Shown here: positions 4,007 through 45,621 of the stretch, in pieces
How positions within the stretch are numbered: the stretch's first letter is position 1
Layout of the letters: each line of letters opens with the position of its first letter
Origin: Toxoplasma gondii ME49
Taxonomy: Eukaryota > Apicomplexa > Conoidasida > Eucoccidiorida > Sarcocystidae
Length of the DNA stretch: 64,000 nt
NCBI RefSeq assembly: GCF_000006565.2
Contig: NC_031468.1
Coordinates: forward strand, 1,574,747-1,638,746
Reading direction: 5' to 3'
Notes under the pieces: generated by a model
Database searches by the model: none
Seen by the model: the letters and a program-made list of their open reading frames with translations, nothing else
Told to the model about the DNA's origin: nothing
Program-made: the position numbers and the translations under genes

Positions 4007-7000
4007 ATGGCTCTTCCGACTTCGGAGCTGTCTCCCCCTGGCGGGGTGGCTGAGAGCTCGCACTTGAACGGAGATCCTTTCCAAGAAAGACAGCAGTACA
4101 TCACCAAATGCCCGAGCTGCTCCTTTCTTCGCTTCTCGCCTCCGGACTGCAGCTCAGTGGAAACGGCCTACGCGACAGACGTGACTGTCTTCGAGGTAAA
4201 CGCACCCTGCGAAGCTGCAGAGCGAGTGAAGCCTTTCGCGTCCCACAGTGTCGGAGGTCGATTCGAAATGCACACCAGCGGGGTGTCTCCAGGCGTCTCC
4301 TCTCGCTGTCGACTGCCGCCTTCTCCTGGTGGCTCTCCAGGTGTCTCCGCGGGTATAGGCTATCCCTGCGAGTCCCGTTTTCGTTCCGATAGAATGCATC
4401 GCCGAGATCTGTTCATCTGTCGAGAAGGCCTCGCCAGAGATGCACAGATCCTGCAATTCCAGATGTCTAAATACGCACTTTTGTCCGCAGATCCGTGGTC
4501 TCCGTTTCTCTGCGGATCTGTTTCGTCTATGGATCTGGACGTTTTTACGAATAAACATGTGCCCACACATCCACATGAATTCCCAGCAGAAAAGGACGCA
4601 GGTGTACATACAGGAAATTCTTTTCTCCAGGACAAAACTCGCTTTTAAGCCGACCCTGTTTGTCTTTGTCCCGAACCCCACCACTGAACGACACGTTAGG
4701 GAGCTCCACAGAACTTGATGTTCTGTTTTAACTCCCCGTGGTAAAACGATGTAGAATGGCGGAAGAAAGTTGAAGAGTGAAGCAGTGGGTGGGCGTTAGG
4801 CACCGAGCAGCCAGTATCCTTTCTTCTAGAAAGAACTTTACGAGCACTTTGTTTGAAGCAAAGAAATGGATGAGAGGGCCTGCTTCTCTGGCTGAACCGT
4901 CTGAGATGTAGCGGGTCCGCAGACGCAGTTTCTTTTCGGCTTAACCTTTCTGTTCACTTCTTGCTGTTGGCTTTCGTTGTGAATGCCACCACCTTTATTT
5001 CACTGGTGTCTGTTTCCAGAGAGACCAAGGCATCCTCGTGGAGAGTTTCCTGGAGTTCACGCGCGCCGTCAGAGGAACGCAGTTGCAGCTGCTTCGGGAG
5101 GAGTCGCCTTTGAGTTCCGCTTCCGAGCATCGCCTCTCGGTGCCTTCTTTGTCAACGTCTCTGACGCCAGGCTCCGAGAAAGAAGCGACTCGCTGCCTGT
5201 ATCGCATTGTGGAGGGCGGTTTCCGAGAAACGTTTCCTCCCATCCCTCACAGCCTTCACTATCCAGACAGCGTTTCGCTGTCTTCTCCCAAGAGCGGCAA
5301 GAGCCGCAGCGAGGCTGTCGAGGTGACGGTGTCCACGGCAGTCTCGCCCTCGACTCTCTCGCTGCCTCTCGGCGAAAGTTACAGCGAGAACTTTTCTCCC
5401 CACTCTGCTCTGTCGCACGCAGAAGCCGCCGCTGCGGTCGCGGCCCGCGTCGACGCCGCGAGAAGCTCCGCCGCCGTCGCTCTGCCCGGCCAGCTCAACG
5501 CCCTCGCTTCCCACCTCGAGCACCGGCTGTACAGACATCGGACGGCTGCGCGCCAGACCGACGGGTCCCCGGCTCCGGGGACCTCTCGCTCGGAGGAGCG
5601 GAAGACTGCGCCGCGTCCGTCGGTCTCGCAGGAGGACGAAGAAGACTTTTTCGCGGGAGAAGAAGCGAAGAGAGACGGCAGCGACAACCTAGACGACCGC
5701 GTGCGAAAGTTCCGCGTGCTCGTCGCTGGCGCCCTCCTGCCGGGCGTCCTCGACGGCACTGCGGTGTACGTACAGGAGGCGAGGATCCGCGAAGCCGAGG
5801 GAACGCAGGGAGAGCTGAACTTCGCGGGAGGAGAGAAGAGACAGACGGAGGAGGAAGAGAAGGAAGACGAGGCGAGCGTCGCTTTGGACAACGCAGACTT
5901 TTGCACGAAGCAGGGCCGCAAAAAGACGCAAAATTCGGGAATCACCGCTGAAGCGCTGCTGCAGGATCTTCTCCACGACTTCGCCTACGGAGGCCTCTTC
6001 AGCTGTGTTGGAGGCAGACCAGAGGAGGTACGAGCGGCGACCCGGGAGAGGACTTGAGAGTTGATTTGTAAAAGATTCCCTCTCGGAGGGAGGTGGTGAA
6101 AGCCTCGCAAGCATCAACTTCTTCCCGTTCAGCTTCACCACCCGCGCTTTGCTTTCGCTCGAACACTGTGGACGCCTAGAAGCCTTGACAGACAGCTGTC
6201 TCCTTCCTGGTTCGCTAGTCTCAGGGTCGCAGGACCTTTCTGTTTATATTTGGGACGTCGCCGAGCGAGCTCTCAGAGCGAAAACAACGCATGGATGAGT
6301 CTTTTGCGGGTCGGGACTTTTAAATCTGTTCAAGGAGAAGTGCAGTTGCGTGCAGGACTGTTTCTACATTTCAGTGGAATTCGTTGGAGACAAAAAAGAA
6401 GGAGGAACTCTGGCAAAGACCGTGTTCATCCCGCGTTTGTTGTGCTTGCAGAGAGACGAGACTCAGGCAGAGACGTCTGGGACAGAGAGAACCCAGAAGA
6501 CGGTGGAGGCGAGTGTCGTTGCACTGCTGGAAGCTCCGAAAGAGAAGGACCTGGGTGGACAGTCATCCGAGGGCGAGTCACGCGAAACAACGCCCAAGTT
6601 GTTTCTCTACTTCCACTTCAAAACGTAGGACAAACAGATCGACTCCGTCTCTTTGGCACGACTCTTTGCTTCTTTCTTTTTTTGCCTGTTAGCTCCGACG
6701 AGATGGTGCATGCAGTGGCCAATCCCGACCAATGGCAACCTTCCAGGAGGCGCTGGGTGCCTTCTGTCTTTTTCGGTGCCTCTGTCTAGTGTCCTTTCCA
6801 CTTCCTCTTTCTTCCCCCTCTTCGTCTCCCGTGTTCACCTGTCCACTTCTGTACGCTCCTTTTCTGTGTCGTTTTTTTCAGCTCCGACGAGATGAAGCAT
6901 GCGCTCGAGAGCTCCGAGTGGGCGGGGTTCCAGGCAGCGTTGCAGAGCCTCTGTGTCTCCGGCTCTCTGACGTCGAGGCTTTTCCACGGCGTCGCTCATT

Positions 7001-7117
7001 CGCGCCGTGAGATCACAGGCGCCTGCGCTCCTGCGGTCCTCGACGTTTCTCCTCACTCACAGGAGGTGTGTCTAATCATCCGCACATACACGGACATGTA
7101 TATACATATATACATAC

Positions 7118-7149
<32 letters not shown>

Positions 7150-10100
7150 GTAAATGCACATATGTGTCTGTGCATGTGTAATTCTTTCTATGTGTACCAC
7201 GTCTCTGTGTATACACACGCACGAATGGATGTATACATATATTCATAAATATATATGTATGTATACCGTTGTATATTTTTGTTTGCAAGTCCCTTTTGCG
7301 TTTTGCGCTTCAGCCGACGCCGTTTGTGCCTCCTCAGGAGCAGGCCGCGGGTCCCCGGCGTGACACGTTCGACTGGTCGACGCAGTTGGACGGGAGCGCC
7401 GTCGTTCAGGAGGATCCGCGGCTGCGGGATGTGGTGGACCAGCTGCAGCATCGCTTCGGCCATCTCCGTCGCGTGATTGAAAGCATTACAAGGAAGTTTG
7501 GAAGCCTCGAGACCTTTGCGAGCGGCCACAAGGTCTTTGGATTCCAGAGAGTCGAAGCAGACAGAGGGTACGCGCGGAGGCCCCGTTGGCCACAGTTATT
7601 TACCTCTCCGTTTTTCTTCGAGCGAGGAAGGCCGAGGACTCTGTCCGTTTCGGGGAGGGAGGGGGGCGGGGTCTACGGAAACGACTTGGTTGTTTCTATA
7701 GAGACGTTTGCATGAAAAAAGTGCTCTGGTGGCGGACACCGCCGCGAAGGCAGAGGAAGGAAGAGTCGCCAGTGTCGCAATCTCCACAGGGCACTCACTG
7801 TCCGTGCGTCAACCTTTTCACAGACATACACGCTTGTCCTCACAGGGTCCATGGGGAGGTCCGCGACCCTTCTGTCGACTTAGATCTGTCGTCTGTCTGT
7901 ACACATATACATCTGAATAACGCTTGTATCTATCTACCTATCTGATCCTGTATCGGTGTCTCTCTCTCCGTTTACCTTTGCATTTTTATCTGTGTTTTTT
8001 TTATCTATACGTCGATATTCATCGCCACCTCAGTGTGTCTGTGTGTGTGGCGCCGTGGCGCTGCGTCTGCACATCGGTTGGGGTTGCACCAAAACCGAGA
8101 CGAGCATGCGATTCAGCAGCCAAGTTTACGGAGATCCAAATGTATGCACTTGTGGACATCCTTTTTCTAGGCGCCCTGGAGGCTGGTCCTATCGAGAGTG
8201 GCTGCCGCATGCGTCGCAAGTATTTCTCTTTGGAGATTTCAACGAGTGGAATCGAACGTCGCACCCTCTGCAGCGTGAGCCGCGCGACGCCTCTCCCTTC
8301 TTCTTCGAGACTGAACTTGGGCTCGACTCGGAGGTCGCGACAGAGAGAGGGTCTGCTGAAGGAGACAAACGCACGCAAGAAGGAGGCGTCTGGAGTCTCT
8401 TTATTCCAGACCACGCCGACGGCTCTTGGGCGCTCCCCCATCGGTGAGTTTACACCGTCTGTTCGCACTCTCTCTGACCGCGGAGACACGCGTCACTTCG
8501 GCTTCTGCCCTTGCTTCTCTTCTTCACCCGGCGACAGACGCTCTCCCGTTCTGCTGCGCCTCTTCCGTTTCGCAGTCTGTCGCCTCGTCACTGGAGAGCT
8601 ATTGGTCCGGCCCGCTCTGTCTCTTCCCGTCTCTTCCCCCCCCCCTGCGTTTTTGTCTCCGTCGGACTCTCTATCTTGCTTTTTCGTCTTTCTCTCTGAG
8701 TCGGTGCGCGTTCACGGTGTCTCTCAGCAGGTCTTCTCTCAGGTGCACAGACACCGTCGTTCCGCGACGTTCTCGTTGCTTGCTTCAGATCGCGCGTGCG
8801 AGTTCGAGTGGTTTCTGCGAACGGAGAAGACTTTGACCGTGTGCCTGCCTGGGCGACTGTCACATGGAAAGGCGAGGCGTCCAAGTTATTCAACGCCGTC
8901 ATTTGGAAGCCGCCGCGCGAAGTGAGAGTCTCTGTCGTCGAACGCAGTGTTGCAGAAACGGAGAGGTCGTCTCTGGGTTTTACCTCACATGAAGACTCAA
9001 ACGCTCTTTCAGCGCCGCCCTCTTCTCGTCGGAACAGAGGCACGAATTCGTCTGTTTTTTACGCTTGCGTTTGCGTATTGGTGTAAGGAAGAGTTCTGCT
9101 TCTTCTCAAGCAGTATTCCGTTTCTCTCCCCGTCGTTTTGTTGCGATGTAAAAGACTGGAAACCTGCGTCACTCGCTTCATTTTTGCTTCGGCTGTCGTC
9201 TGCTTCAGAGCCTGAGAGATCCCGGGTGGCCGTGGCGCGGGCAGCAACTTTGTTCTCGCCCTGTCTCCCGCTCGAGTGCAGCTTGTCCGCCTCCGTCTCG
9301 TTTGCGGGCCTTCCTCTCATTGAGGGCAGTAGGAGTTTTCTCTCTGCATGCACCTGAATTTCTTGCCTTCGCAGGAGGAGTACGTCTGCCGCCACCCCAG
9401 CCCCACCGCGGGGACTCTGGAGGCCGCGCCTCGCGTCTACGAAGCCCACATCGGGGCAAGCGACCCCAGCGGAGAGCGACTGGGGACCTACTCCGACTTC
9501 GTCGACGTCGTCCTCCCGCGCATCAAACGACTCGGCTACAACACAGTGCTGGTCAGGAGAAGCGGCAGCGGGAGAGAAGACGCAAGAGGAAAGAGGAAAC
9601 GGAAACAGAGGGCAGAAGAAGGGGAAAAGAAGACAGAGAACGAGGGAGAGGAGAAGAAACAGGAGCGTCAGTGGTGCGTGTTCTTGTCTTCCTTGTTTAT
9701 CGTTAGAGTGTGTGGCTCGCGTCTCCTTTCTTGCCTGTGGCGTCTGGGCTTCGGCGTTCGAGGCGTCGCTTCTCTTTTCTGCACCTCTTGTCGAGGTTTC
9801 CTTTTCCTTCTCTCCCATTTTCAGCTCAACGGCGTCATTGAGCATGCAGACTACGCGTCGTTTGGATTCTACGTGTCCAGCCCGTTCGCGGTGAGCAGCC
9901 GCTTCGGGACTCCCGAGGAGTTTCGCCGCCTCGTCGACTCCGCGCATGCAATCGGTCTGAGAGTTCTGCTCTCCATTTACCACTCACATGTCTCGCGGAA
10001 CGCTCTGGAGGGCCTCGGGAACATGGACGGTTGTGAGTCGACTTACTTTTTGGATGGCGACGCTGGCACCAATGCGGAGTGGCAGGAAGCGAAGTTGTTC

Positions 10101-13100
10101 GACTTTGGAAAAACCGAAGTCCTCAGGTATCTCCTCTCAAACATCAAGTTCTTCGTCGACGTCTACAAGTAAGTCTGGGTCGACAACGCCTCACGGTTTC
10201 GGGGTGGAGGCGCCGGGTCTTGGAGCAGCGTGTCCGGTGAAAAGTCCATAGCGTCGAAAGTCGAGTCTCCGTAGGAACTCATCACGTCATAGCAAAAACT
10301 AGCGGAAAAACGCGACTTCCACCTTTGAGCTGCAGTTTGAAAGGTAGCTCTAAAACTCCCCCGAATGCGAAACGCGCGCCAAAACCCACAGTCGCTGGAA
10401 AGGCGCTTCGACGAAGTCCGAACACTTGCTGGGGACGGTCCAATCACGAGTTCACACATGCATCTTGGCAGGTAGCAGAATCGACATCCCGTCCCGCGCG
10501 CGCCCTTGACGCAGCCGCTATGGACCCGATGAGTTGGAGAGAGACTCGCGTATTCGTTTTACATTTCAAACGTGCCTGACGAGAAACAGTTTCGACCGTG
10601 GGCCAGGGAAACTGGAGAGCGAAAAACGGTCAACTGTCGGGGTCCTCCAGGAGGGAGGTCGAGACCGAGGCGGTCTCTCGACGTTAAGGCGATCTTTTCT
10701 CCAGTGGGGGGAAAGGATTTGAAGACGCGAAGGCGGCAGGAAGAAAGAGACTCTGTCTGATCTGCTGCGTTCCTCTTGTTTTCTCGCGCTTTTCCGTGTG
10801 TACAGCGTGGACGGCTTCCGATTCGAAGGCGTCACCTCGATGCTGTACACGCACCACGGGACAGCTCGACGCTTCGATCCGTTTGACTACGGGGCGTACT
10901 TCGAGCCAGGGTCTCTGCAGGCCTCGTCACTCCTCTACCTCTCCATCGCCAACTCGCTTCTCGCTTCCCTGCTGCCCTCGCCGCGCCGTCTGTCGATCGC
11001 AAACGAATGGTCTGCTTTTCCGACGCTCTGCCGGCGCGTCGACACGGGTGGGCTTGGCTTCGACTTCCGCCACGAAGGCGGCTGGGCGCAGAAACTCCGC
11101 GCGCAACTCCAGCAACTCGGCGGCCGCTCCTGGCGCCTGAACGAACTGGTGTGGACGGTCGCCAGCAAGCCGAACACGGAGAAGGTTCTTGCTGCATTCG
11201 AGGATGCAGACACAACGCGACGGTGCAAACGGTAACGACCTCCACTTGCTCGAACGTTCCGGACTCTCCGCGCTTCTTCTTTCTCTTCTTCTTTTTCTTC
11301 TTCTTTCTCTTCCTCTTTCTCTTCTTCTTTCTCTTCTCCTCTGTCGTCTTTTGCTTCTTCTTCGTCTTCTCTGTCTGGTTCTCTCTTGTGTTTGGGGGTT
11401 CTGAAGGTTCGTCGTGGTGCGTTTCTGCGTTTCAGGCCTTTGTCGGTGGCTCTGTTTTCATGGGAGTCGCTGCACACGCATGCAGTTGGAGGCGTCGCGC
11501 CGCATGTGACGGAGTTGGCGGCGGGGTTGGCGCGTCAGGGCCATGAGGTGCATATTTTTGTCCGCGCGACCGGCATGGAGGCGGTGACGACAGTCCACTT
11601 CGACGTCACATATCACCAGTGCACCTTCAACCTCGACAGAGACTTCGTGAAGGAAATGGGGAACATGTGCGACAGCTTCGTCCAAAGGCTCCTCCAAGTC
11701 GAGGCCTCCAGAGGCGAAACCTTCGACATCTGCCATGCACACGATTGGCTCGCTGCCCGCGCAATGGTTCGAGCCAAACAGCTGGTGAGCCGACCACAGC
11801 GAGCAAAGAGAAACCAGAGAAACCGAGAGGAAACGGGGAGAAGAGAGGCGACAGGAAGAAGTGAAGAAGAAGAAGAAGGTGGGGAACAGGGAGGAACAAC
11901 GAGCAGGAAGACGGAGCGTGAGATTCGGCTGCAGGCGCCAAACCGAGTGTAATATGCATATCTTTTTATCTGCACTCCAGCTAAACAGGTATCCGTTTCG
12001 CGTTTCAGACAAATGAGTATCAGCGTGCACAGAGGCCTCCTCGCGGAATCAGGAATTTCGAGGAGGTCGCGTTCAGTCCAAGGGCAAGTCGTGATTTAGC
12101 TTGTAAATGTCCGGAGCACTTGCTCCGTTTTTGCGGGACGTTTGCCTTCGAGAACGTCGTGGGTTCTCTCTCGACCACGAGAGAGGGTGTGGCGAAGCGC
12201 GAGGAAGGGGCGCAGAGAGGAAAGCTCTTCCGGGCAGGCTTGTGTTTCATCGGCGCGCTCTCGATTCGGTTTTCCTCCAGTTTCAGTCGTTTCAGTTGCA
12301 GCGACTTGAAAAGAAAGAGCGGGGTCGACTCCCCGTGCTGAGGCGAAAACGAGAGAGCTCCCTGAGATCGAGAACATGTTTTACACAATTTGCATGCGGT
12401 CTCTCTCCACCAGGGCAGGACGGCAGTCATGACAATGCACTCGACAGAATTCGGACGCTGCGGAAACAACGCTTACGGCGGAGTTTCGAAGAGCATTCGC
12501 GACATCGAAGGTGGGGAAACCACACACGAGAACGTCACAAAAAGATAGATTAGACAGAAAAGAGAGAACATCTGCAAGATGAGAAAGACGGGGGCGGAAG
12601 AGAGTGGAACAAATGTAGAAAGGAAGAGTCGAGCACGCAGAAACAGACACCCACACATGGAGAGATTCGACAAGTCGACATCTCTCGATCCGCATTTGCT
12701 GATGCTTCCCTTCTTGAACGCGTGAGCCTGGGTCGCGTGGAAACTCCTGAACGCGTTGCTTTCCTTTCCTCTTTTGTGGGTTCTCATTCGACTTTTTTCG
12801 TTCGTTTTCTTCTACCGCCCTTCTCTCTCTCTCTCTGCCGCGCGCGGTCTCTCCTCTTGTGCTGGTCTCTCTTCTTGTGCTGGTCTTTTTTCCTCGGTCA
12901 CGCCTTTTTCTTCCTTCTCGCGTTTCTTCGCCGACCGTTCTCTCTCTTGTATGCCTTTCATTCGTCTTCCACTTTTCGCTTTCTCCGCTTCATCCTGTCC
13001 ACCCGCTTCTTCTCCTCTTTCGCGCCTGCGCGCGTTTCCGCCTCTCTCCGCAGCTGAGGCATGTCACATGGCCGACCGCGTCATCTGCGTCAGCGGCGTG

Positions 13101-16100
13101 CTCGCACAGGAAGTGCAGACTCAGTACGGGATCCACCCGGAGAAAATCAAAGTGATTTACAACGGCATTCAGTGCGAGCGATTCGACGGCGAGGTGGACG
13201 CGGGCGAAGTCAAGGCGCAGTACGGCATCCCTGCGATGGACCCCACCTTCCTGTTCGTCGGTGAGACTTGTTCGCTCGCGTGTCTGCGGCCTGAGATGAC
13301 TCGTGAGACTCGGGTCTCGACTCGGATGGGAGTGCAGCTCTTTTTTTCTGCTGGGCGGTTCTCTCTGCGAAACATATCCGCTTGGATGTGCAGGAACGAC
13401 TGTCGTGGATGGACGTTTCAAGGAACGCCAGAACATGGGAGGGAAACCGCCGCACCACTCCCTCCATCCTCGCGGGGGCTTGACAGACACTCGACGGCGC
13501 TCCCTGGGGAGTTTGGCAGGGCCTCTTGTGGTTGATGTCGTTCACCCCTCTGTGTACACTGGATCTAGGTTTCCTCTCTGTTCCCTCTCTCGTTCTGACC
13601 GTTGCAAAGATCCTCACGTTGACCATGTCCTGGAGAAGTGACAGGAACTTCCACGCTTCGATTCTGGCGAGTAGAGACCACGAGAGAGACTCCTTGCGCA
13701 GCTCGCGTCTCGCCATACCTCTTTGAATTCAAGCGGCCTGCGTCTTTTTCCGTGGAGATACCCCTCTCGCGTTTAGTGAACCGCTTGGCATCCGTCGTCT
13801 TTGTCGAACGGCTGCAGGCGAGTGTCCGATGCAGGAGACATGGTATTGCGTCGTGTCTCCGCTCTTCCGGCGCTTCTTTGATCTTCTTTTTTCAATTCTC
13901 TTGCGTCTCCCACCGTCAGGCCGGATGGTGGTCCAGAAGGGTCCCGACCTTCTTCTGGAGGCGATTCCGTTCATCCTGAAATTCCGCAGCGACGCGAAGT
14001 TCGTCTTTGTTGGAGACGGCCATATGATGGGACAACTGGTCCAGCGGTGTAAACAGCTCAACGTCGGCCACGCAGGTCTGCTTGCAGAGACACAAACACT
14101 CCTCTCAGAGTCCCGAAGGGGGTGACCTTTGCTCGCCAGTTGGCTCTTCTTGCTCTCTCTCTGGTTGCCTTTTCAGGAATGCTTTTCCGTCGTTCAATCT
14201 GTCTCTCTTCTTCTGTTCCTTTGTCTATGTCTGCGTCTGTGTCCTTCTCCCGGTCCTTCTCCGCTCCGGCTGTGTCTCGCGTCTCTTCCCCTCCGTCGCT
14301 CTGCGTCCTTTGTTCGATTCTCTCTCTTCTCCATTCTCTCTGCTCTCTCCTTCTCTCTGCCGCCGTCGTGGCATGCCTGGCGCTGGCGCGAATGCCTGAG
14401 AACCGTCCGTTGTCTTTTTCTCTCCAGTGCGCTTCGTGGGCCAGAGAGGAGGAGCGGTGCTGCATGCGCTTTTCAAGTCCTGCGACGCCGTCGTGGTTCC
14501 GTCGAGGAACGAACCGTTCGGCATCGTGGTCCTCGAAGCGTGGAGCTCTGGGAAGCCAGTCGTCGCCACCAACAGCGGAGGCCCTCGCGACTTCGTCAAT
14601 CCACACCACACTGGCTACTTGGTGGTGAGAGTCGAGAGACTTCCTGAGTTCGCGTGCATCTCTTCTCAACTCTCTACACACGTCTCTCTATCTACCGCTA
14701 CATATATCTATCTCTCTGTCTACATCTATCTCTTTCTATCTCTCAAAATACCTAGCTCCATGTATATCTACCATTCTGTATCTATCTCCATCTCTCTGTC
14801 TATGTGCGGATCTCTCAATCTGTATGTTTACAACTACATACATATACATACATATATATATCTATCTATATATATATGTATATCGCTGTATCTCTGCTCA
14901 TATGTATCTCTCTATTTTTTTGTGTATACCTCTGTCTGTACATAGAATGGTGTTTTCCATTTTCGATTTCGCGTCTCGGAGCTGTGTCGGAGTCTCTGTC
15001 TGTCGACTTTGAGCGTTGTCTGGGAACTTCACTTCGGTGCAGGATCCAGAGCCGGGGAGCATTGCATGGGGCTGCTGCGAGATTCTGAAGAACTTTGAGC
15101 ACTCGCGGTGGATGGGGTCTCGAGGCCGTGTGACGGCGGCGTTCAGTTTCAGCTGGGATTCCATCGCCACACAAACGGCCGAGATCTACTGCGAGCAGAC
15201 TTGTCGTCACGACTTGCCGCCGAACTGCACGAACGCGCGAAAGGGTGACACAACGATGGCTCTCGCTCTCGTCGGACCGGTGAGCAAGACGAGGGAACGC
15301 AGCTTCCGGGTGTCTCCACAGACACACACACACACATGCGGAGAAGAAGACGTCGCGGCCTTCTTCGGGGCGGGCAACGACGACCTGCGAACGCAAGGCG
15401 CCTGCGCTGAGTTCCCCAGTTGGAGGATGCGACGTCTTCCGGGTGCCGCCCTCTTGTGAGAAGGCGAGAAGAGACGCCCAGCCGAAGAGAGAAGAAAACT
15501 CTCGGCGCTCCTCCGCAGTTGACGATAGCTCCTTCCTGGCGGTGACATGCGAGCAAACGCGGGAACGCTTGAACGCTTGAACGCTTGAACGCTTGGTCTG
15601 TGATCGGGAAAGTCATTTTCCTTTCGTAGTTGCAGCCATCTCTTCTCTTTTCAAAGGAAACGTACACGCGCCGCTTCCCAGCTCTTCGATTTCGAACGTT
15701 CAACACCAAAGTGAAGAACTCGCAGAACTGCAGACTTTCATTCCAAAGCTCCTCCGTGGCGTCACTTGTCTAACGAAATGGGAAATCGTTATTTCCGCAT
15801 GTGCAAACTGCGCGTATGCCAACCCTCTCGAATCTCCCCTGTCTTCTTCGCTTGCCGTCGCATCCAAAAAATGCTGCCATCTTCTTTCTTCCTCGCCTCT
15901 GTCTCTCCTCTGTATTCTCTCTCTTCTCTGTCTTCTTCTCTCATGTGTCTTCTTCTCTCTGTCTTCTTCTCTCATGTGTCTTCTTCTCTCTGTCTTCTGT
16001 GTCATCGCGTCGCTGTGTCGCGAGACCGCGTTGCCTTTCCTTGACATTCGGAGTTTTCGCTTTGTGTGAACCGCTGGCCAGGCCTTGCATGCGCATATGG

Positions 16101-18135
16101 CCGTCTTCGACGACGATCCGAACGTAGCGAATGGCTTGGCCCTCTGGCGCACCCTGCGCCTCCTTCTCTTCGTCGTGGCTGACGGCTGGCTGAGCTTCAT
16201 GGGCAACGAATTCGCTCATCCCGACGAAGTGGACTTGCCGCGTCCCGCAAACCATTTCTCCTTAGCGAAGAACTTCCGCCGGTGGAACCTTGCAGACGAC
16301 GTCCACCTCAAGTTCAAGCACTGCGAGGTGGGCACGCTGAGTAGACCTCGTGTACAAATGACAACGCATGCATGCACATCTGCGAGTTACGAATTCCAGG
16401 GTATTTGCATGTAAAGGATTGTTCAAATCCGCTCGCCGTTGACACCGACGTGTACGAAAACAGTGTGTGCTTCATTGGCAGCAAGTCTCTGTCTGTGGCC
16501 ACTGCGTAAGTTGAGATTCTTTGTCTAGCCATGACGGGTGTCTACCTTCCTCTTTCTCTGCACATCGCACCATAGTTTCTCCCATGCTTCTGTCTGTGTG
16601 CAACTCTGTATTCGCTTCTCCGTCTGTTTCCGCGTTTTATGCTCACACACATATGCATATATATATATGTTTATACATATATATATATATATATATATAT
16701 GAATTTATGTGTATCTATCGTTAATTGGATGTGCATGTACAACTGACTTGTGAGTGCATAGAAGTTGTCGCTTCTTTTTCGGAGGGCCTGTGCGTCTGGA
16801 GACTCGCCGCAGCTTTCCCTGCTGTTTTTTCAGTTTTTCGAGGCCTTCTTGAGCCACTGGGAAAACGTCTTTGGCTCCCAGAGCGCGCGTCACCTGTTCG
16901 TCGTCACATGCAGCGAGGAAGAACAAGTCGTCGTCCTCGAACGCGGCGACTGCCTCGTGGCGATCAACCTCCATCCGACGCAAGTGAGGCGCTTCTCTTC
17001 TGTCTCTGCGGACTCCTGGTCCCGCGTCTGCCGCTTTCCTTCTGCATCCTTTTGTCTCCAGCTGTCTCCAGCTGCGCCTCTCTCTGGGCCTCTCTTCCCC
17101 GTGTCGACGTCGCACTCTTCGCGACGTCCCTTTGCCGCTGCTCTTCCTTTTCTTCTCTTCTCTTTTCTCTGCCTCTGTCCCCTTTTCTTCTCTTCTCTTT
17201 TCTCTTCCTTTCGTCTCATTCTGTCCGTTCGGTTCTCTGTGCGTCGTCTTCACAGTCTGTCTTGCGTTTTGTCTCTTGGGTGTCAGAGCTACGAAGGCTT
17301 CCACACCGGCTGTATGTACAGCGGCCCCGAGATGCAGCTTCTTTTCGACACGGACGAGGAGCGTTTCGGTGGCTTCGGACGGCTCACGGCCAGAAGCTTG
17401 CATCCAGTTCTCTCCGGCAAAGACAGCAGACCGCATTCAGTCAAGCTTTATCTCCCCTCGCGTACGGGCGCTGTCTATGTGTCAAGTCACCTCTTCGACC
17501 AACGCTACGCAGCACGATGGGACGCCGATCCTGTGAGTGCATGCAAAACACGGTCAAATCGTAGCTGGAGTGCATGCATGCATGTCTCTGCGGTGCCTGC
17601 GTCGACGTCGAGATCGAGATGTACACACATATATGTGGGGATCAATGCGGACGTCGTCTCCATGTGACTCCGATATCTATCTTCCTCGATCTCTCAGTCT
17701 CTCTCTATTTCTTTCTGGAGCTGCTTCCGTCTATCTCCATTCTGTATCTGTCTATATCTCTATCTATCTATATCTGTCTATATCTATATCTCTATCTATA
17801 TGTATCCACAGCTAGCTGGCTAGCTACAAGAGGAACTGTCTTCCAGTATTTGTGTTTGCATGCGTTTGCATGCGTCTGTTTGTGTGGAGAGAGACTGAAC
17901 GTGTGGCTGTCTCTTTAGACTGATCTACACATGGAAGTCTGCTTGTTCTTGTACGCGGGGGAGATGTGAGGAGAGTGATAGGTCTCTAAGTTTCCTCGCA
18001 GTCGCAGTCTGAAGCGTTTCAACGCGGACGAGGGTCACCAAATGCTTTTTTTTTCAGGTGATGCATTTCACAGCCGATGACTTCGTGGCGCATCTCGCAA
18101 CCGTCAAAGCGGAGTGCATGCAAGCCATCTCGTGA
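4007..18135 (+). CDS. Glycogen/amylopectin branching enzyme-like protein with an inserted GT-B glycosyltransferase (20 exons)
   Basis: Proposed exons, all with matching phases: 4007-4195, 5020-6027, 6452-6624, 6882-7065, 7314-7567, 8171-8443, 8789-8921, 9375-9551, 9825-10168, 10806-11231, 11436-11784, 12414-12510, 13054-13260, 13920-14075, 14428-14624, 15043-15279, 16082-16327, 16834-16983, 17287-17532, 18058-18135. They sum to 5,124 nt, about 1,707 residues. Residues 1-518 are not recognised. A CBM48 segment (GDFNEW) lies near 604-738. The GH13 barrel runs about 745-1053 and resumes about 1463-1560 (FMGNEFAHP). A beta domain follows to about 1690. A GT4/GT5-like domain sits between at about 1055-1455. 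In known branching enzymes this fold transfers alpha-1,4 chains to alpha-1,6 positions. Here the nucleophile Asp is Glu919, the acid/base Glu is Asn978, and the regions I and IV catalytic-site residues are Ser847 and Ala1046, so branching activity is doubtful. Start chosen as the first ATG giving an open exon 1; upstream exons are possible. Confidence 0.87.
6693..6756 (+). other. Diverged duplicate of exon 4 (possible mutually exclusive exon or relic)
   Basis: About 190 bases before the real exon 4 (6882-7065) there is a second acceptor followed by the same first 13 bases (ctccgacgagatg) and further interrupted similarity for about 80 bases, including ttccagg. Read from this acceptor it gives SDEM.HA...W, like exon 4. 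A GT donor after 6756 would leave the same phases as exon 4 (in 2, out 0), so it could replace exon 4 but not sit beside it. It is much shorter than exon 4 and could equally be a dead duplicate. Confidence 0.45.
7099..7150. repeat. TATA/CATA microsatellite in an intron
   Basis: Alternating TA and TACATA units fill the start of intron 4 of the branching-enzyme gene and continue in looser form to about 7262. No coding role. Confidence 0.85.
11274..11342. repeat. CTT/CTTT polypyrimidine tract in an intron
   Basis: A near-perfect pyrimidine run (TTC, TTTC, TTCC units) in intron 10 of the branching-enzyme gene, between the region IV exon and the first glycosyltransferase exon. The reverse strand gives spurious Glu/Lys-rich open frames here. 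Confidence 0.85.
11436..15279 (+). other. Inserted GT-B (GT4/GT5-like) glycosyltransferase domain within the branching-enzyme gene
   Basis: Exons 11-16 of the preceding gene encode a full retaining glycosyltransferase of GT-B fold. The N-terminal lobe has a GGVAPH sugar-nucleotide loop followed by GHEVHIF and a HAHDW segment. Next come an EFGRCGN segment, VICVSG, VIYNGI, GRMVVQKGPDLLL (Arg and Lys typical of diphosphate binding) and FVGDGHM. The EX7E motif is NEPFGIVVLE (Glu1352 and Glu1360), followed by the GGP loop. The closing helix lies in exon 16. All the motifs expected of a glycogen/starch-synthase-like or sucrose-synthase-like enzyme are present, so this half of the protein looks active. 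Donor and acceptor are not shown by the sequence; UDP-glucose is a guess from the fusion partner. Confidence 0.82.
14838..14885. repeat. TATA/TCTA microsatellite in an intron
   Basis: ATACATA and TATCTA units in intron 15 of the branching-enzyme gene, within a longer TCTATCTC-rich stretch starting near 14690. Confidence 0.75.
15564..15595. repeat. Eight-base tandem repeat (gcttgaac)
   Basis: Four consecutive copies, the last partial, of an 8-base unit inside intron 16 of the branching-enzyme gene. No known function. Confidence 0.85.
15929..15998. repeat. About 31-base pyrimidine-rich tandem repeat
   Basis: The unit tgtcttcttctctcatg recurs roughly two to three times near the 3' end of intron 16, just before the exon that resumes the branching-enzyme barrel. 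It lengthens the polypyrimidine region in front of the acceptor at 16081. Confidence 0.75.
16651..16700. repeat. TATA microsatellite in an intron
   Basis: A run of TA dinucleotides with one internal interruption in intron 17 of the branching-enzyme gene. Confidence 0.85.
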
Positions 18136-21120
18136 TCAAACTTCCACCACACAGGAGACGCCTTCGCCGAAGAAAACAGACCAAGTGCACATACGTTTCT
18201 GCATGCCTAGAGATATTCATGTCTACATGCATGCATGCGTCTGCTCGCAAGTGTACCTGCATTGCCACAGGCGCATATTTAGACATCTGCATGTGCGTCT
18301 GTCTGTAAGCATTCACAACCGCCAAGTTGTGTGCGCCGTTCTCCAGATGCGCAGACCTGCATCGTTTTAAGAGTGGAGGACTCTGCCTTTCAGAAGACAA
18401 CAGGCTCGAGAGAGAAAAAGCAGATGCTGTGTGGCTGACGCTTCTTCTTTTCCCCCTTTGAATGACTTCCCGTGTCTGCCGAAGACCAGCGAGACGCCGG
18501 CGATGAGAGAGGATCCACTCGTCTCTCTTCTTCCGCCCTCTGAAGTGAGGCAGAGGGCCTTCTGTTTGTCGGGTGTACGTCCACCGCAGCTGCGACTTGG
18601 CCAGGCCACGGCGCGGAGGCCGGCGAGTGCCGCGCATGCAGCGCATCGTTTTTTGTGGCGTTTCTTGTGCGTCGCCGTTCTCTCTGTGCGCCGCCCGCCG
18701 CGTCGACCTTTTGTTCAGGCGAACGCCCTTCCGTTTTTCCGACTCGTTTTTCTCCGCGCACACTGCGAAAGAGGAAACGAACTGTTTCTTCGCATGCACA
18801 GGGGCCGATGCGCGTTTCGCGATCTTCGCACCCATAGTGGCTCCCTCGTCGCGGCTTCTTCTCTTCTCCCGTAGTCTGCGTCTTCTCCCCCGAAGACATT
18901 TGACAGAACGGGGAGAGGGGAAAGAAGCTGAACGTATAGGGCGGTGCATATAAGGGCAAGTCCTCTCCTAGAGACCGAAAACGACGCAGCCGCCCAGTCG
19001 TTCCACTGTGTTTCACCCTTCTTTGGGGGAAACGCCAGACAACAAAAGACAAAGCGAGAGCGACTATCGCCCAGAGTACTCAGGTGCATCTGCGTCTTAA
19101 TCCCGCGCGCTTCAGAAACGCTGCTGTTCACTGCTGCTCGTACACTTGCACGCGTTTTGAAACGCCGTCTTTTGTGTGCCTCTGCATGCTTCTCGTTAGA
19201 CACACCTCCTCTGTCTCTGTTCCACTTTTCCGATGTCGTCCCCCCCCTTTTTGCCTCGTCGCATGCAGCGAGGGGCATGCAGTTTTCCTCTGAAACTCTG
19301 TCACAGCGAGATGGTGCCGTGGTTCGACTCTCGCTGAAAACTCTGGAATGTTTTTTGGAAGACGAACCAGCGTTCTCGAGGAGGGGGTGAGCTGCAGTGA
19401 CACCGGAAACTCGCGCAGTGCCCGGTGGCCACCAACAGACACAACTGCATGCTCCACTCTTCTTTCTTCGAGCATTGCATGCACTTGTCAAAACAGAGAC
19501 ACTCTGCACCTCAGAAACACGTTCCCAGAAATCATGTGATTACAGAGACACAAATTAATGAGAAATCTATCTGAACATATATATATATATATATGTATAT
19601 ATATCCATGTGTAGTTACAGGTGCAGATGGCAGATGCACCACATGTGCATGGATAGTATCTCTATACACGTATACATATGCATATATATATATATTTATA
19701 CACTTATATTCGGGCGCCTTAGATTCTTCACCGTTTGCTGGATCCTCTATAAAACTGTGCACAGAAGAAAATACTGTGTATTCCGAGAGCATTTACTCAT
19801 CTACAATATATATATATATATATACATGCTGAATGAGTTGTGAAAGCTTCTGGGAAGACGCGTGACGTTGAGACGAGTTGTTCTGGCGACATGCAGAAGT
19901 ATCTGTTTCGAGCGTTTCTCGCTTTTCAGTTCGTGAGGTCCCTGAGAGAGATTTGAACCTTTTCCTAACCAGCAGGGCCTTTTTCCAGAAGGCAGAGAAT
20001 TTTCAGAAGTTCATGGCATGAACAACTTCAAAACGGTTTCTATGCCTCTCCTCACACTTCTTTCCGTCCGCTGCTGTCTCTCTTTCAGCTCCGTCCTCGC
20101 CGACGGGGGCTCGGGGCCTCTCTCCGGTCTCGACACGAGCGCTCTGAAAACGCGACTTTCAGAGACCGGGCTGCGGTGCGGCGACAAACGGAGACGGAAG
20201 AGACCCGATTGTTTTTCTCGCGGTTTCTGCTGTCGCTGTTTCCCTTTTTCGTGGAGGACCTTAGAGCTGCTGCTCAATTTCGAGCACAAGAAACGCGACG
20301 GGGAAACGTGGAGACCGCCTTTTGTGCATGCAATCGGATGTGCAGAGTTCAAGCGCAAAGACACAGTGTGCAACCGCGCCCAGGAAGAGAGAAAGAGAAA
20401 GAGAAAGAGAGACGAGAGGGTGTTTTTTGGAGGGTGAAATTCGTTAGAATCCTGGATGGAAAGCGACTTTTCGTTCTCGGTTGTCTCCTTCTGGATTTCG
20501 GCTTCCAGGATTGACCCTGGCGCGCGAGAGGGGAAGAGATGACGAGACAGAGAAGAATTCCTGGAGGGTGAAGACGCAAGAGCTCGTGTGCTGGCGGTCG
20601 TTCTTTGTTCTCCCCACCGGTCTTTTCCTATGGTTTCTGTCCGTTCTTCGCCTTTCTTTTCGACAGGTTGGCTTGCGGGCAGGCCGGTCAGAGGACGAAG
20701 CTTGTGGCCTCTCTCAGGTGCAAAGAAAGCGAAAAGGGTACATAAGACAAGGGAGAGGGAAGAGAGACGCCAAGAGGTCTCACCTTTCCTCTCTCGTTTC
20801 TCTTTCTTCTTTCTTCTTTTGCCCTCTTTTATTTCTAGTCTCTCTGTCTCCTTTGCCTCTCTGTGCTTGCTTCTTCAGCCTCACCAGGGTGGCTCCTGCT
20901 CTCCTCTCGCACGCAGCTGCCATGTAGTAGTGTGCCGTTGTGCGGCTTCGAGTGTTTCCGCCTTTCTGTTCCTTCTCTTCTTTCTCTTCTTATCTTCCTC
21001 TTTTCTTTCCTCTCTTTCTTTGCCTCTGATGCGCGGGCCATTTCTCTTCCTTCATCTCTTTTCTCCCTCCGTTCGTTTCCGGTGGCCGCCTCCTTTGCCG
21101 GGCTCCTCTCTGTCTCCAAG
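18136..21120. other. Spacer between the branching-enzyme fusion and GCP4
   Basis: This stretch follows the stop codon at 18133-18135 and precedes the GCP4 start. I see no exon chain on either strand. It contains TGCATGC-rich sequence just after the stop, several TATA microsatellites (19577-19604, near 19680-19700 and near 19808-19822), and one TGAGACG heptamer at about 19869-19875 that resembles a cis-element described in Toxoplasma promoters. It probably holds the 3' untranslated region of the first gene and the promoter of the second. Confidence 0.55.
19577..19604. repeat. TATA microsatellite
   Basis: An uninterrupted TA run followed by GTATATATA in the spacer before GCP4; similar shorter runs follow near 19680 and 19808. 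Confidence 0.8.
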
Positions 21121-24100
21121 ATGATGCACGACGTTCTCTTGGCTTTGGCGGGATTCCCCGGCGACGTCTTCGTCTACGCGCCTCCCGGCTCCTCTGCAGA
21201 CGCTTCTTTTTCCAGTTCTCAACTGTCCGCGTCAGAGTCTCCCGAGGCTGCGACGCGAACCGGAGGCTTGCTGCTCAGTCCGAAGCTCGCGAGTTTCTTC
21301 ACTCCTGCAGAAGAGGAACTTCTAAACAGAATCGTCGTCTCCGGCTTCCACCTCATTCAAATTCGTGACTTCGTCTCCTCTGTCGAAACAGACGTCCCTG
21401 CCGTCTCCCTCGCCAGCGCCAGCTCTCTCTTTTCTCTCTCTTCCAGTGGCCAGGAGGTGAAACGCAGCGCGAAGGAGAAACATGCGGGGGAAGAAAGCGA
21501 CGGGGACCAAGTCGGCTTCAAAGGCCTCTATGTCTCCGCTCTCGCACGGGCGATGGATGCAGAAGTTCAGGAGTACCTGACAAAGATAGTGGAAATTGAG
21601 GCGCAGGTGCTACTCCAGCCCCTCCTCCCCCTTTCTGCTGTCTACGTACTCCTCGCCACAGAGAGACAGAAACTCGCAACTCTCTACGAAATCGTCACCA
21701 AGGTAGTCACAGACACAAGAGAAAAAGAAACGTCGAGCGCGGCAAACGCAGGAAACGTCGACTGGTCGCCTAGCTTTTTTCCTGAGCTTTTTTCCTGAGC
21801 TTTTTTCCTGAGCTTTTTTCCTGAGCTTTTTTTCCTGAGCTTTTTTCCTGCCGCGCGCCTTTGCTGTTCGCCGGTCTCCGTTTGGATTCTCAAACGTTTT
21901 TCCTCCCTCTTTCTCTTTGGTCCTTCAGTCTCCTTTCCCGCTTCCCCCGTTCATTTTCCCTCGTGCTGCTCTCTTCTTTGCGGTCTTCTATCGGTCGGTC
22001 ACCTCTCTCTGGCAATCGCGTCGCTCTCTGCGTGTGACCTCTCTCCATATTTTCACTCTTCCCTCTCTGTGGCTTCTGAGTCTCTCTTTCCCTCTCCGGA
22101 CTCTTCGCTGTGTCGACGTGCAGATCCGCAGCCTCGCGCTGATGTACAGAGACCCGTCTCCCGCTCTGTCGCCTTCGGCCTTCGTCGTCACCGCGTCTTC
22201 ACTTCTTCCTCACAGCGCGCGGCATCATGTTTTCCAAGATTCAAAGACCGAGCGAGGCATGACGCCCAGGCGTGTGTCTCTGCCCTGCGGCCCTCTGCTC
22301 GACCTCCTCTGGGCAGGCACCCGCAGCGGAAACTCTCTCGTTCAGCAGGTGTACAGGCAGGTGCTCGATGCATGCGTCCACGTCTTCATTTTCCAGGTAA
22401 CTGCCCAGTCGCGGAACGCGCAGAACAGGGAGACGCGCCTGTCTGTGACTGGCGACCTGCACTCTTCTTCTGCAGTGTCTGGAGTTGCGGCGTTGCCAGA
22501 GGAACTCACGCGTTTGTGCGGCAGGTCGTTATGGGCGAGGCCAGAGCGTGGATCGTTCAATGCGCGAGAACCGCGTTGGACCAATCCTCTTCTCAGTCGA
22601 TCGCCTAGTTGACGCGCCCGAGTATTCCCCATCATCTGGACAGAAGAAGAATTGTTGGAAACATGGATTTGACGACTTTCTTCTCCCGCCTGCTCTGCTG
22701 TTGAGTCCGACGAAGAGACGAAGCACATCCTTGAACTGAGGATAGAACGAAACAGACTGAGAGTTCCGCGAAAATTCAAGAATGCGCAGCCGCGTCTGTC
22801 CACCTCTAGTTGCAGATGTTTTTGCAGCTTAACTCCACACACGAATCTCCACTTTCTTGTTCTCTGTTTGTCCCTAAAGAGATAGATGTTTGTTTGCATG
22901 CATGCTTCTCGGGAAACACCTGGGCGCAGTTTTTGACGTGGATCGCCTCGCGTTCGGTGTCTTTCGTGGCGAAAGATGCTTCCTGTTTTCGACAAGCGTT
23001 TCTGCGTCCGGCCTTCTCGTTTTCAAAACTCTAAACTACTAGGCTGTGTGGACCTCTCTCGCCGTAGCTTCGCGTCCGCCTTCCGTCTGCCTCGCCACGA
23101 CCCGCTCAACGTTTTTCTCTCGCCGCTCTGCGTCTTGCCTCTCGTCTCTGTTCAGCTGTCTTCGTGGCTCTTCGCGGGGCAGCTGCACGATCCGTTCGGC
23201 GAGTTTTTCCTTTCGCGTCGCTCGTCGCTTGTCCCCGCTTCTTCTTCCTCCTCCTCGTCTTCTTCCTCGATCTTCGCGAATCTCGCCGTCAAACAGCAGA
23301 ACGCGAAACATGTCGCGCCCCGCGGAGAAAACGCCTCGCAGGCGATTGCGCTCTCTCTTTCTTCTTCGCACGGTCCTGCTCCGTCCTCTCCTTCTTCTCC
23401 TTCTCCTCTCTCTCCTTCCTCTCCTCCCTCTCCTTCCTCTCTTTCGTCGGATTCGCTGTTCGTGTACGAGAACCTCACGCAACCGTTGTCCCCGTCGCAG
23501 CTCTGCTTCGAGTGGGAAAGTGCATTTTCTCTCGTCGCCTTCCGTCTGCCATCGTGCTGCTTCCCTTCGCCAAAACTCGCGTCTCCCTCGGCCTCGGGGG
23601 CTTCTCTGTGTTCGGCGACAAAGTCCGAACAACACCCGCATGCGTCGCTGGTGCCCTCGCCAGCTGCCGCCGGTACAGCGCTCTTCGTTGGGAGGGCCGT
23701 TCGAATCCTGACGCGGAGTGGACTCTGGGGAGAAGCTCAAGTGCAGCAGTTGAAGCCGCTAGTTGCGCGAATGGTGAGGTCGAAGAAGAACTGCAGGAAA
23801 CGAGACGGGGAACGAAACAGAGAACGAGAGCAAAGCAAACACAAGAGATTGAAGTGAAGGAGACAGACATGCGTCTTTGAAAACGATGTGATGTCTGGGT
23901 GTCCACGCGAGACGCAAAGGCAGGGCGAAAGAGGTGGAAGATGCGAAAGGCAGAGAGACAGAGAAAAAGTGAAGGGAAGAACATCGAGACACGAAGAGAG
24001 CAATGAAGAGGACGAAACAAGAGAAGAGAGACAGAAAAGAAGGCATGGAGAGGAACAAAAGAAACGAGAAAGGAACGAAAGACAAGGAAATGCAGAGCGG

Positions 24101-38023: not shown

Positions 38024-39739
38024 TTACAATTGGGTTTCACCATTCCCTTGAACGGTCTCCTGAAGCAACTGCATGGTGCGGCGGAAATTGGCATCGCGCA
38101 GAGCAGCTTGTGGCACCAGGCGGGTCCAACGTCTTCGAGTCAGGAACTTGCGAATGAGGGTTTTCACAGATTCCGGCATGTCACTCGGGCAGACATCGAA
38201 GGACAGACGCTGATCCAAGTTGCGAACGGTTTGATACAAGGTCGCAGGGTGTGAGTTCTCGAGTTTCTCTGAAGAATCGACTCCGGGTGTCCCCAGATCG
38301 AACGGCAGCCTTCCGCACCATAACTCGAAAAGGATAATTCCGAGAGAATACCCGTCCCGGGAATACGTGTACGGTGTCTCGGGGTGCTCCAAAACCTCAG
38401 GCGCACCGTACCTACTCGGACGGGATGTCGTGAACCTCTCCCCGTGGCGACGTGCTCTGCCGAGGTCGGAGAGGTAGAGAAGGCCATGACTGAAGAGCAG
38501 AACGCTTTTGGGTTCCAGCTTTCCGTGCACTACTTTTCGCGTGTGCAGTGCTGCCAGAAGTTGGATCAGCTGCACAGTCGCGCCCAGGAGGACAATTTTC
38601 TTCGCTCGATCATCGAATGCTGAGGCATCACCTGAGCGCAGAAAATTGATGACATCCACCAGCGAGGACGAGGCCTTGGGAACCAGGACAACCGGCCTGC
38701 CTTCGCTCTGATCGGCAGAATCACCATCTCCTCGGTAAACCAGTGTCTCGATGGGAGCCAAGAGACGAAGTCGATGCATTGCGTCCACCGGGTCCTTCAG
38801 CGACACGATTTTCAGGATTCTAGCCTCTGTCTCGGCAACTGACATCGACTCTGTAGTCTTCCCGAGAAACGCCTTCACAGCGAGTTCAGAATCAATGCCA
38901 GAGATGAATCCGCTGAAAACTGCCGTATACTCTCCAATTCCGAGTGGTGCTCTGAGAGATACCGTCACTTGTTCACCAGTTGTAGCGGACACAAGGTTGA
39001 TAGAGGCCCCAGACCGCAGCCCCGCCTCACGCGCAACCTCCAACGCTTCGCCTTCGGGGGCCGTAACTGTCATGGACGAGGCAAGCGATGCGAGTTCTGA
39101 TTGTCCGACCGCCTCCTCGTTGCGGAATTCGAAGCTGCTTCGTAGAGCAAGTCGTCCTCTAACACGGTCAGTGACTCCCGCCATACCCGTGGTGAACCGC
39201 CTCCAACCGCGTCCAACAAACCGTCGGGCACCTCCGAAGAAGCGGCCCACGCGACCAAACATGTCTCTGGCTCGTTGTCTCGGGGATCTAGTGGGTGCTT
39301 TCGGCTCCGGCTCCCCAGGCGGGACATCGCCTGACTGAACCGTCTCCCATCCTTCAGGAGTAGAATCTGTCCCACTAGGGATGGGCTGTGAGGGTCCTGG
39401 GACGGCCCCCTGTTCATCGGTTCGTGGACGCCGGATTGCGTTCCGAGCAGATGTAAACCAGGACATCACACGTTGACCAAACGATCGCCCGGACGATTGT
39501 GTTTGTGGAGGAACCCCTGTCGTGGCTACCTCAGTGATGCCTTCTTCATCGATGTTGCCTCTTGAATCTGGCAGAGAATCCGCACCTCGAGCGACTTGAA
39601 GAACAACAGGTTCACCCGCAGTATCTGCGACGTCCGGGCCCAAAGTCCCTTGCACTGGCGCAGCCAGAGAGACCTGGGGTGCGCAGACCAGGCTGATGCC
39701 GCCTGCCGCCGCAAAAAAAAGGGCAACAGACGTCCTCAT
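38024..39739 (-). CDS. ROP2-superfamily secreted pseudokinase, intact copy 1
   Basis: A single open exon of 571 residues. ATG at 39739 is chosen because all four copies share MRTSVALFFAA from this point. Residues 1-27 form a signal peptide. About 28-150 is variable and acidic/Pro-rich. Residues 153-200 are an Arg-rich amphipathic stretch of the type that binds ROP2-family proteins to the vacuole membrane. The kinase fold follows: glycine loop GIGEYTAV (267-274), AVK Lys289, HGK in place of HRD (405-407, so the catalytic Asp is Lys, and the later Asn is Ser), DLG (425-427) and APE (446-448). Loss of the catalytic Asp predicts a pseudokinase. ROP5 is the best-known tandem pseudokinase of this superfamily, but the C-lobe here differs enough that I do not assign a ROP number. 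The gene converges on GCP4. Confidence 0.9.
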   Translation of the reverse strand: MRTSVALFFAAAGGISLVCAPQVSLAAPVQGTLGPDVADTAGEPVVLQVARGADSLPDSRGNIDEEGITEVATTGVPPQTQSSGRSFGQRVMSWFTSARNAIRRPRTDEQGAVPGPSQPIPSGTDSTPEGWETVQSGDVPPGEPEPKAPTRSPRQRARDMFGRVGRFFGGARRFVGRGWRRFTTGMAGVTDRVRGRLALRSSFEFRNEEAVGQSELASLASSMTVTAPEGEALEVAREAGLRSGASINLVSATTGEQVTVSLRAPLGIGEYTAVFSGFISGIDSELAVKAFLGKTTESMSVAETEARILKIVSLKDPVDAMHRLRLLAPIETLVYRGDGDSADQSEGRPVVLVPKASSSLVDVINFLRSGDASAFDDRAKKIVLLGATVQLIQLLAALHTRKVVHGKLEPKSVLLFSHGLLYLSDLGRARRHGERFTTSRPSRYGAPEVLEHPETPYTYSRDGYSLGIILFELWCGRLPFDLGTPGVDSSEKLENSHPATLYQTVRNLDQRLSFDVCPSDMPESVKTLIRKFLTRRRWTRLVPQAALRDANFRRTMQLLQETVQGNGETQL

Positions 39740-40861
39740 TTTGATGGACACAACCTTCAGTCTTAGCTGGGTGAGGTCGGCTTCTAGACAAAACCCGGAA
39801 TCTCGTGCAGAACACCCGGGACTTGCTAAATAATTGCGTGCTCAACAGTGTCCGTCGCGTAGCACTGCAGTTGAATGGTCTCGCGTTTTCCAACCTTTAA
39901 AAGTTCTGGTGATTTGTTGGCTAGCAGTTTAACAGGCTGTAGCTAGAAATTGATGAGACGTTAGCCAGAAATCAGTGAGGCGTGAAGACGCTCCCCCTGT
40001 CTTCCGCTTGTGTCTTTCTCGACCTCGTTGACGGCTCTCCGAATTCGCGGAGCTAGCGCGGCACCCGGTGGTGATCGTGCTAGCGCTGCCGTACGAAAAT
40101 GAAAGGACACCGACAAAGCCCTCGAATTACATTCGCCACTTCTATGTTCGGAGACAGAGGGACGACCATTTGTTCTGCTGCCTCAGTTATCCTGTTTCCA
40201 GCTAACTAGTTTCCACCCAAAATGTGGTGCGTGTCTTGAATGGGGATGCACCTTGTTGCTGCACGACTTGGCCCGTCGCTCGAGATACACCATGGCTGGG
40301 GCCGCCCGTCGCTCATAGAGTGAAGCGCGGTAGTCGACCGCAGTCGCTTCATATTCACCAAGTCAACCGTCGCACAACAATACTACCTCAATTTCCTCGT
40401 ACAATATCGAGGAGCAAGACGATGCCGTCACCTCTGCTCCGATGAGATCTCACTGAAGAACCGTGTTCCTTCGCGACCTACAAGCAGCCGCCGTAGGGCC
40501 AGTAGTTATGGGGAAGAATCACACCTAGTTCACGCCCGGTTTTTGTTGAAGTGTAATTCACTTGATTTTGCTGTAGGACGCCCGGTCGACTCGAAAGCCT
40601 TCTGGAAAATATACATCCGCTAGCTTGGACATGGCGGAGTGACAGGACGACAGAAGTGCTAATTCTCGTGTCTGGAAACAATTCTGCACTGCTGATAATA
40701 CAAACGAGTGCGGCAATCCAGCTACTTTCGAAGAGTGTGGAGATGCATTCACCGGCAGAGGGAAGGATTCCGACACGCCTCGCCCACTTCAGCGGAGTGG
40801 AGAGCCACTGAAAAAACAGGAGCGTCATACAGGGCAGCACGCGTGTTGTCGCCCCTGTGAA
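39740..40861. other. 5' flank of ROP copy 1 and spacer with Y and X repeat segments
   Basis: The first 160 bases match the 5' flanks of the other copies. 39900-40140 is diverged, then segment Y starts near 40145 and passes into segment X near 40600 before the first N run. No separate gene is evident. Confidence 0.6.
39954..39960. promoter_or_regulatory. TGAGACG heptamer upstream of ROP copy 1
   Basis: WGAGACG elements are a known Toxoplasma promoter motif that works in either orientation. One lies 215 bases upstream of the copy 1 ATG. At the aligned place the other copies read TGAGGCT (42823-42829 and about 47339-47345), so only the intact gene keeps the motif. A 7-base match can arise by chance. 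Confidence 0.35.
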
Positions 40862-45339: not shown

Positions 45340-45621
45340 NNNNNNNNNNNNNNNNNNNNNNNNNNNNNNNNNNNNNNNNNNNNNNNNNNNNNNNNNNNNN
45401 NNNNNNNNNNNNNNNNNNNNNNNNNNNNNNNNNNNNNNNNNNNNNNNNNNNNNNNNNNNNNNNNNNNNNNNNNNNNNNNNNNNNNNNNNNNNNNNNNNNN
45501 NNNNNNNNNNNNNNNNNNNNNNNNNNNNNNNNNNNNNNNNNNNNNNNNNNNNNNNNNNNNNNNNNNNNNNNNNNNNNNNNNNNNNNNNNNNNNNNNNNNN
45601 NNNNNNNNNNNNNNNNNNNNN
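45340..45621. other. Assembly gap in ROP copy 3
   Basis: N run at the same place in the repeat unit as the copy 2 gap. The C-terminal coding end of copy 3 is missing. Confidence 0.98.

Follow-up and report, generated by a model that had tools for sequence, protein, structure and literature searches.

Within a 64,000-nucleotide stretch of the Toxoplasma gondii ME49 genome (the window), a single gene on the + strand encodes what the gene model and alignments identify as a branching enzyme with a whole glycosyltransferase (GT) inserted in its region IV loop, not fused to it end to end. The host barrel is apparently a catalytically dead pseudo-branching-enzyme. We consider it likely that the fused protein is an amylopectin synthase, in which a GT4/GT5-type alpha-1,4-glucan synthase would act on a dead branching-enzyme scaffold.

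The gene (5020-18135) was rebuilt from the window alone as 19 modelled exons in one open frame, with all 18 introns of GT-AG type and a terminal stop codon (Table 1). The modelled protein comprises 1644 aa, without the true N-terminus. Its Pfam domains follow the order CBM48, Alpha-amylase, Glyco_transf_4, Glycos_transf_1 and Alpha-amylase_C, with the glycosyltransferase domains falling in exons 10-15 (11436-15279). The N-terminal extension gave no convincing Pfam match, the best listed Pfam stretches beginning at residue 530, and a PDB search of it returned one match (E = 0.56) that we take as chance. At gathering cut-offs, Rfam had no match in the window. Downstream of the fused gene lie an open reading frame with a gamma-tubulin complex component N-terminal domain (20839-21795, + strand) and two Pfam Kinase-like frames on the minus strand (38027-39841 and 45288-46325), which we take to resemble rhoptry kinases.

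Table 1. Features of the fused gene, in window coordinates
Feature	Position	Strand	Basis
N-terminal extension, exons 1-4, codons 1-536 (~536 residues)	5020..7556	+	open spliced frame
Branching-enzyme part 1, CBM48 and GH13 barrel to region IV, exons 5-9, codons 541-984	8172..11211	+	
GH13 region I, SIYHSH, Asp270 to Ser	9972..9989	+	alignment, hand-counted numbering
GH13 region II, DGFRFEG, nucleophile Asp344 to Glu	10810..10830	+	alignment
GH13 region III, SIANEWSA, acid/base Glu399 to Asn	10993..11016	+	alignment
GH13 region IV, EDAD replacing ESHD, His467 to Ala, Asp468 retained; 5' edge of insertion	11200..11211	+	
GT4-type glycosyltransferase insert, codons 991-1379, from the last bases of exon 9 through exons 10-14 and most of exon 15	11230..15201	+	
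GT motif NEPFGIVVLE (E-x7-E)	14508..14537	+	
Exon 15: GT C-terminus, linker CRHDLPPNCTNAR and first resumed branching-enzyme residues, one open frame	15043..15279	+	
Branching-enzyme part 2, remaining barrel and C-terminal beta domain, exons 15-19, codons 1393-1644	15241..18132	+	

By its alignments, the host body is a branching enzyme of eukaryotic type. A structure search matched 146 distinct sequences, and the best of the 60 listed were branching enzymes (3vu2 at 2.1e-125, then 3amk, 3aml, 7ml5, 7p43, 5clt and 4bzy), some so named by their depositors and others recognized by us as such; for 3amk and 3aml the listing names just the product of a rice locus, and their matches resemble that of 3vu2. 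Bacterial GlgB entries among the matches listed were much weaker (1.8e-31 at best). In phmmer alignments the rice enzyme 3vu2 is matched in two collinear pieces, query residues 71-444 to rice 100-468 (domain i-Evalue 3.8e-88) and query residues 853-1061 to rice 472-690 (i-Evalue 2.3e-31). Pfam recovers the CBM_48 (3.6e-13), Alpha-amylase (8e-6) and Alpha-amylase_C (6e-11) domains, so that CBM48, GH13 barrel and C-terminal all-beta domain stand in the order of a branching enzyme around a barrel that is discontinuous in sequence.

The barrel has lost key residues of its active site. GH13 catalytic columns were counted by hand on the phmmer alignments in rice numbering, at eight rice catalytic-site positions that include the nucleophile Asp344 and the acid/base Glu399. 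Five of the eight are altered (Tyr235 to Phe, Asp270 to Ser, Asp344 to Glu, Glu399 to Asn, His467 to Ala) and three are retained (His275, Arg342, Asp468). At the columns where a nucleophilic Asp and an acid/base Glu were looked for, the protein has Glu and Asn. Because these residues are lost, the old enzyme is probably now a holder for the new one.

The interruption follows directly after the residue aligned with rice Asp468, the last of the region IV ESHD motif. The query then carries 408 extra residues, three rice residues are skipped, and the match resumes at rice position 472. The best stretch ends at query residue 444 in the top 7 of the 60 listed structure matches (146 in total), six of which are branching enzymes by depositor name or recognition and the remaining one the same rice protein, and it restarts at query residues 851-853 in all five printed alignments. 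Model exon 9 (10806-11231), which is exon 10 in the earlier sequence-only reading of this DNA, has the final residues ...VLAAFEDADTTRRCK. The 5' join crosses one inferred intron, whose donor lies about 7 codons past the branching-enzyme edge and whose exon 10 acceptor lies at most 2 codons from the residue aligned with the start of the bacterial GT described below. At the 3' end, exon 15 reads ...AEIYCEQTCRHDLPPNCTNARKGDTTMALALVGP with no stop, and since it is open across both the GT end and the branching-enzyme restart, the two are joined in the DNA itself. Third-position GC content (GC3) is 0.725 in branching-enzyme part 1, 0.748 in the GT and 0.73 in part 2; being close to its flanks, the insert is unremarkable in composition.

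These junctions bear out the central proposal of the sequence-only reading, that a whole GT sits in region IV of a branching enzyme, since collinear phmmer pieces flank the insert and the break follows Asp468. Its preference for insertion over end-to-end fusion agrees with the gene model, the alignments and the junction reading alike, and translated Pfam searches place Glyco_transf_4 and Glycos_transf_1 between Alpha-amylase and Alpha-amylase_C. Two details needed correction. The gap, put at about 415 codons, measures 408 residues, and the 3' anchor, which equated LALVGP with ALVGD, is a few residues out of register: the branching enzyme restarts at KGDTTMALALVGP, opposite VGDKTIAFLLMDK (GDTTMALAL aligned with GDKTIAFLL), and we rejected the earlier register for that reason.

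The guest has two GT domains, Glyco_transf_4 (9.7e-30) and Glycos_transf_1 (4.8e-38), together with a weaker Glyco_transf_5 match (7e-14). Both are complete, PF13439 being covered from 1 to 170 of 170 (residues 1008-1182) and PF00534 from 4 to 170 of 172 (residues 1191-1355). As had been claimed, the insert has motifs of its own (HAVGG, CHAHDW, VGRMVVQKG and NEPFGIVVLE), all of them kept; we presume that the E-x7-E, Lys/Arg and GG-loop motifs have their customary meaning for a glycosyltransferase. The GT passes the cut-off of PF08323, the starch synthase catalytic domain (52.6 versus 22.7 bits), with PF00534 and PF13439 scoring higher. It misses the cut-off of the NCBIfam model glgA_Coryne (160.5 versus 302.4 bits), although this is its best-scoring NCBIfam model, and the MshA and BshA models reach 151 and 121.7 bits. 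Because the glgA_Coryne cut-off is missed and MshA scores nearly as well, sequence does not fix the acceptor and product of the GT.

A close bacterial relative of the guest was found by scanning bacterial and archaeal genomes with just six short peptides drawn from the fused region. The scan gave nine stretches and confirmed one locus, which lies in Methylacidiphilum sp. Yel (Verrucomicrobiota), and because so few short peptides were used, a single locus says nothing on absence elsewhere. The relative is a free-standing 385-aa GT4 and not a fusion; it too falls below the glgA_Coryne cut-off (142.4 bits). BLAST aligns residues 3-385 of the window GT with residues 1-381 of the bacterial one, the two being 54-55% identical, and a three-way alignment reaches the ends of the bacterial proteins, so the description of the insert as a complete GT holds over the entire free-standing enzyme. 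Matches at E <= 1e-50 and 55-56% identity occur in 4 of 288 Verrucomicrobiota genomes, an even draw from a larger group with the Methylacidiphilum genome itself included, and the three further GTs are 92-99% identical to the first. In all four bacterial loci read, the GT4 gene adjoins a GH57-like gene (Pfam-confirmed as GH57 in Methylacidiphilum sp. Yel only). At that locus a GH13 gene follows the GT4/GH57 pair (L006:5028-8459), a possible alpha-glucan cluster. Because of its GH57 and GH13 neighbors, the bacterial homologue points to alpha-glucan.

Twelve other GT matches in the same Methylacidiphilum genome have 25-36% identity over partial lengths; seven of these loci were rechecked, six giving 25-31% and the seventh (L015) a 10-residue match for which the choice of reading frame was probably wrong. 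Scans of the viral collections gave no confirmed relative. The phage collection had 45 matching records, the five listed at 22.6-28.7% identity, and the plasmid collection 1307, all below 60%, with 31.3% the best of the 20 listed. The GT resembles one bacterial enzyme far more than it does any other GT4 compared, and since the other listed GTs are much less identical, we place the insert in a narrow subfamily common to it and these bacteria. Because the bacterial gene is patchy too, this likeness does not prove which way a transfer went. AlphaFold2 prediction of the bacterial GT alone, from four near-identical rows, was unusable (mean pLDDT 33.9).

Searches of the whole genome (65.28 Mb in 1959 contigs, the window coming from a 1.95-Mb contig) place the fused gene among other glucan-enzyme candidates. 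When the 1104-aa protein was searched against the genome, all 15 matches fell inside the window gene (13 first-look candidates scored), and exon-wise searches found no second copy. PF00534 gave two matches, the other one weak and below the cut-off, and PF05693, searched exon-wise, gave none. PF08323 has one short match elsewhere (G000:C3:1221541-1221708; 26 bits, just above the cut-off, with one internal stop), which could be a second GT5-like gene. The PF00128 search returned nothing although the window gene carries that domain; because this gene was missed, presumably through exon-by-exon searching, the negative family searches are weak, that for PF05693 above all. By these exon-wise searches, no GT4/GT5 synthase candidate found in the genome is stronger than the window gene. 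Alpha-amylase_C also led to a GlgB-type gene on the minus strand of another contig (G000:C13:5364881-5370577), which, read frame by frame, has four intact GH13 motifs (LDFVPAHF, GLRIDAV, MAEESTSW and LSHDE). A GH13-type region on a third contig (G000:C14:2930099-2941099) combines an Alpha-amylase_C match (2937591-2937842) with DGLRLD and GSHDQ motifs that may or may not share one gene with it.

Several other explanations of this arrangement were weighed. The GT could be an independent gene nested inside the branching-enzyme gene, for which the proximity of the exon 10 acceptor to the bacterial start equivalent speaks. However, the GT frame upstream of model exon 10 has no ATG back to the stop at 11233, which also answers the earlier concern about a start or stop between the two exons that flank the 5' join; the first in-frame Met stands 46 residues into the GT, past the GG loop. 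The GT C-terminus and the restarted branching enzyme moreover share one open exon, and a GT-free branching-enzyme transcript could presumably arise only by leaving out exons 10-14 together with part of exon 15. With its start missing and exon 15 shared, a separate gene was rejected as very improbable. High identity to a bacterial protein might also betray an assembly chimera or bacterial contamination, but the insert contains in-frame GT-AG introns, its GC3 is close to that of both flanks and the contig extends over 1.95 Mb, and on these grounds we dismissed an artifact as having a negligible chance of being correct.

The remaining two alternatives accept the insertion and concern what the protein does. 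A bifunctional enzyme, whose barrel still branches with the region II Glu and a neighboring region III Glu in place of the lost residues, would explain why the sequence is conserved overall and why the equivalents of His275, Arg342 and Asp468 persist. Against it, D344E, E399N, D270S, H467A and Y235F fall, by hand count, at columns with conserved flanks, the catalytic loop is occupied by the GT, and the intact-motif GlgB-type gene lies elsewhere in the genome. Given the changed nucleophile and acid/base, the filled loop and that gene, we rejected an active branching enzyme and judge bifunctionality quite unlikely. Alternatively, the GT may act on an acceptor other than glucan, be it a protein, a lipid or an inositol sugar, in which case the gene would be no glucan synthase. 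The MshA and BshA scores, not far behind that of the glycogen synthase model, speak for such a role, but fusion to an alpha-glucan enzyme body, the alpha-glucan surroundings of the bacterial homologue and the fact that no stronger glucan synthase candidate was found in the genome make it unlikely.

We therefore return to the amylopectin-synthase reading, which is moderately supported because the genome searches found no stronger candidate, the bacterial homologue has alpha-glucan neighbors and the best NCBIfam model is a glycogen synthase, although the score is well below its cut-off. A starch or glycogen synthase gene has been annotated and studied in Toxoplasma. In our model, a retaining GT of bacterial type, GT4/GT5-like and probably UDP-glucose-using, would have entered the beta7-alpha7 (region IV) loop as a complete unit and would most likely elongate the alpha-1,4 chains of storage amylopectin, an activity, donor and substrate that we infer. 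The region IV insertion loop lies on the catalytic face of the GH13 barrel fold, and the GT would therefore cover the old active site. The CBM48, barrel groove and C domain of the dead body would most likely bind glucan and keep chain ends near the GT, coupling glucan binding to chain elongation. The sequence-only reading had already proposed a glucan-binding scaffold, an idea that the lost catalytic residues of the barrel, not mentioned there, now support. More tentatively, we speculate that this is the storage-glucan synthase of the lineage: a bacterial-type GT may have landed in the loop of a host branching enzyme, killed branching and made the barrel an integral primer holder that places growing chains under the GT, so that geometry, and not separate synthases, helps to set the chain order of semi-crystalline amylopectin. 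That extension is possible, but we hold it to be on balance doubtful. The gene offers a clear case of how insertion can build a new multidomain synthase, one in which the host seems to be inactive and the guest active. It suggests how a pseudoenzyme can persist as a scaffold, and provides the strongest candidate found in this organism for chain elongation of its storage polysaccharide.

Compared with known systems, the host shares with the rice enzyme (3amk, 3vu2) and with 4bzy, 7p43 and 5clt the same collinear barrel and C domain, the CBM48 region being matched too; it differs from these branching enzymes in the GT within its region IV loop and in its altered key catalytic residues. The GT4 proteins of Methylacidiphilum sp. 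Yel and three other Verrucomicrobiota genomes have the same ends and the same motifs as the insert, whereas theirs is a separate protein inserted in nothing. The GT4/GT5 glycogen synthases (glgA_Coryne; GlgA in PDB 3fro/2bis) are similar over the whole domain or the greater part of it and presumably have the E-x7-E motif in common with the insert, but the Toxoplasma GT scores below the curated family cut-off and is nested in a host enzyme. Fungal alpha-1,3-glucan synthase likewise combines GH13 and GT5 domains in one protein; there the domains are arranged in tandem, whereas here one lies inside the other.
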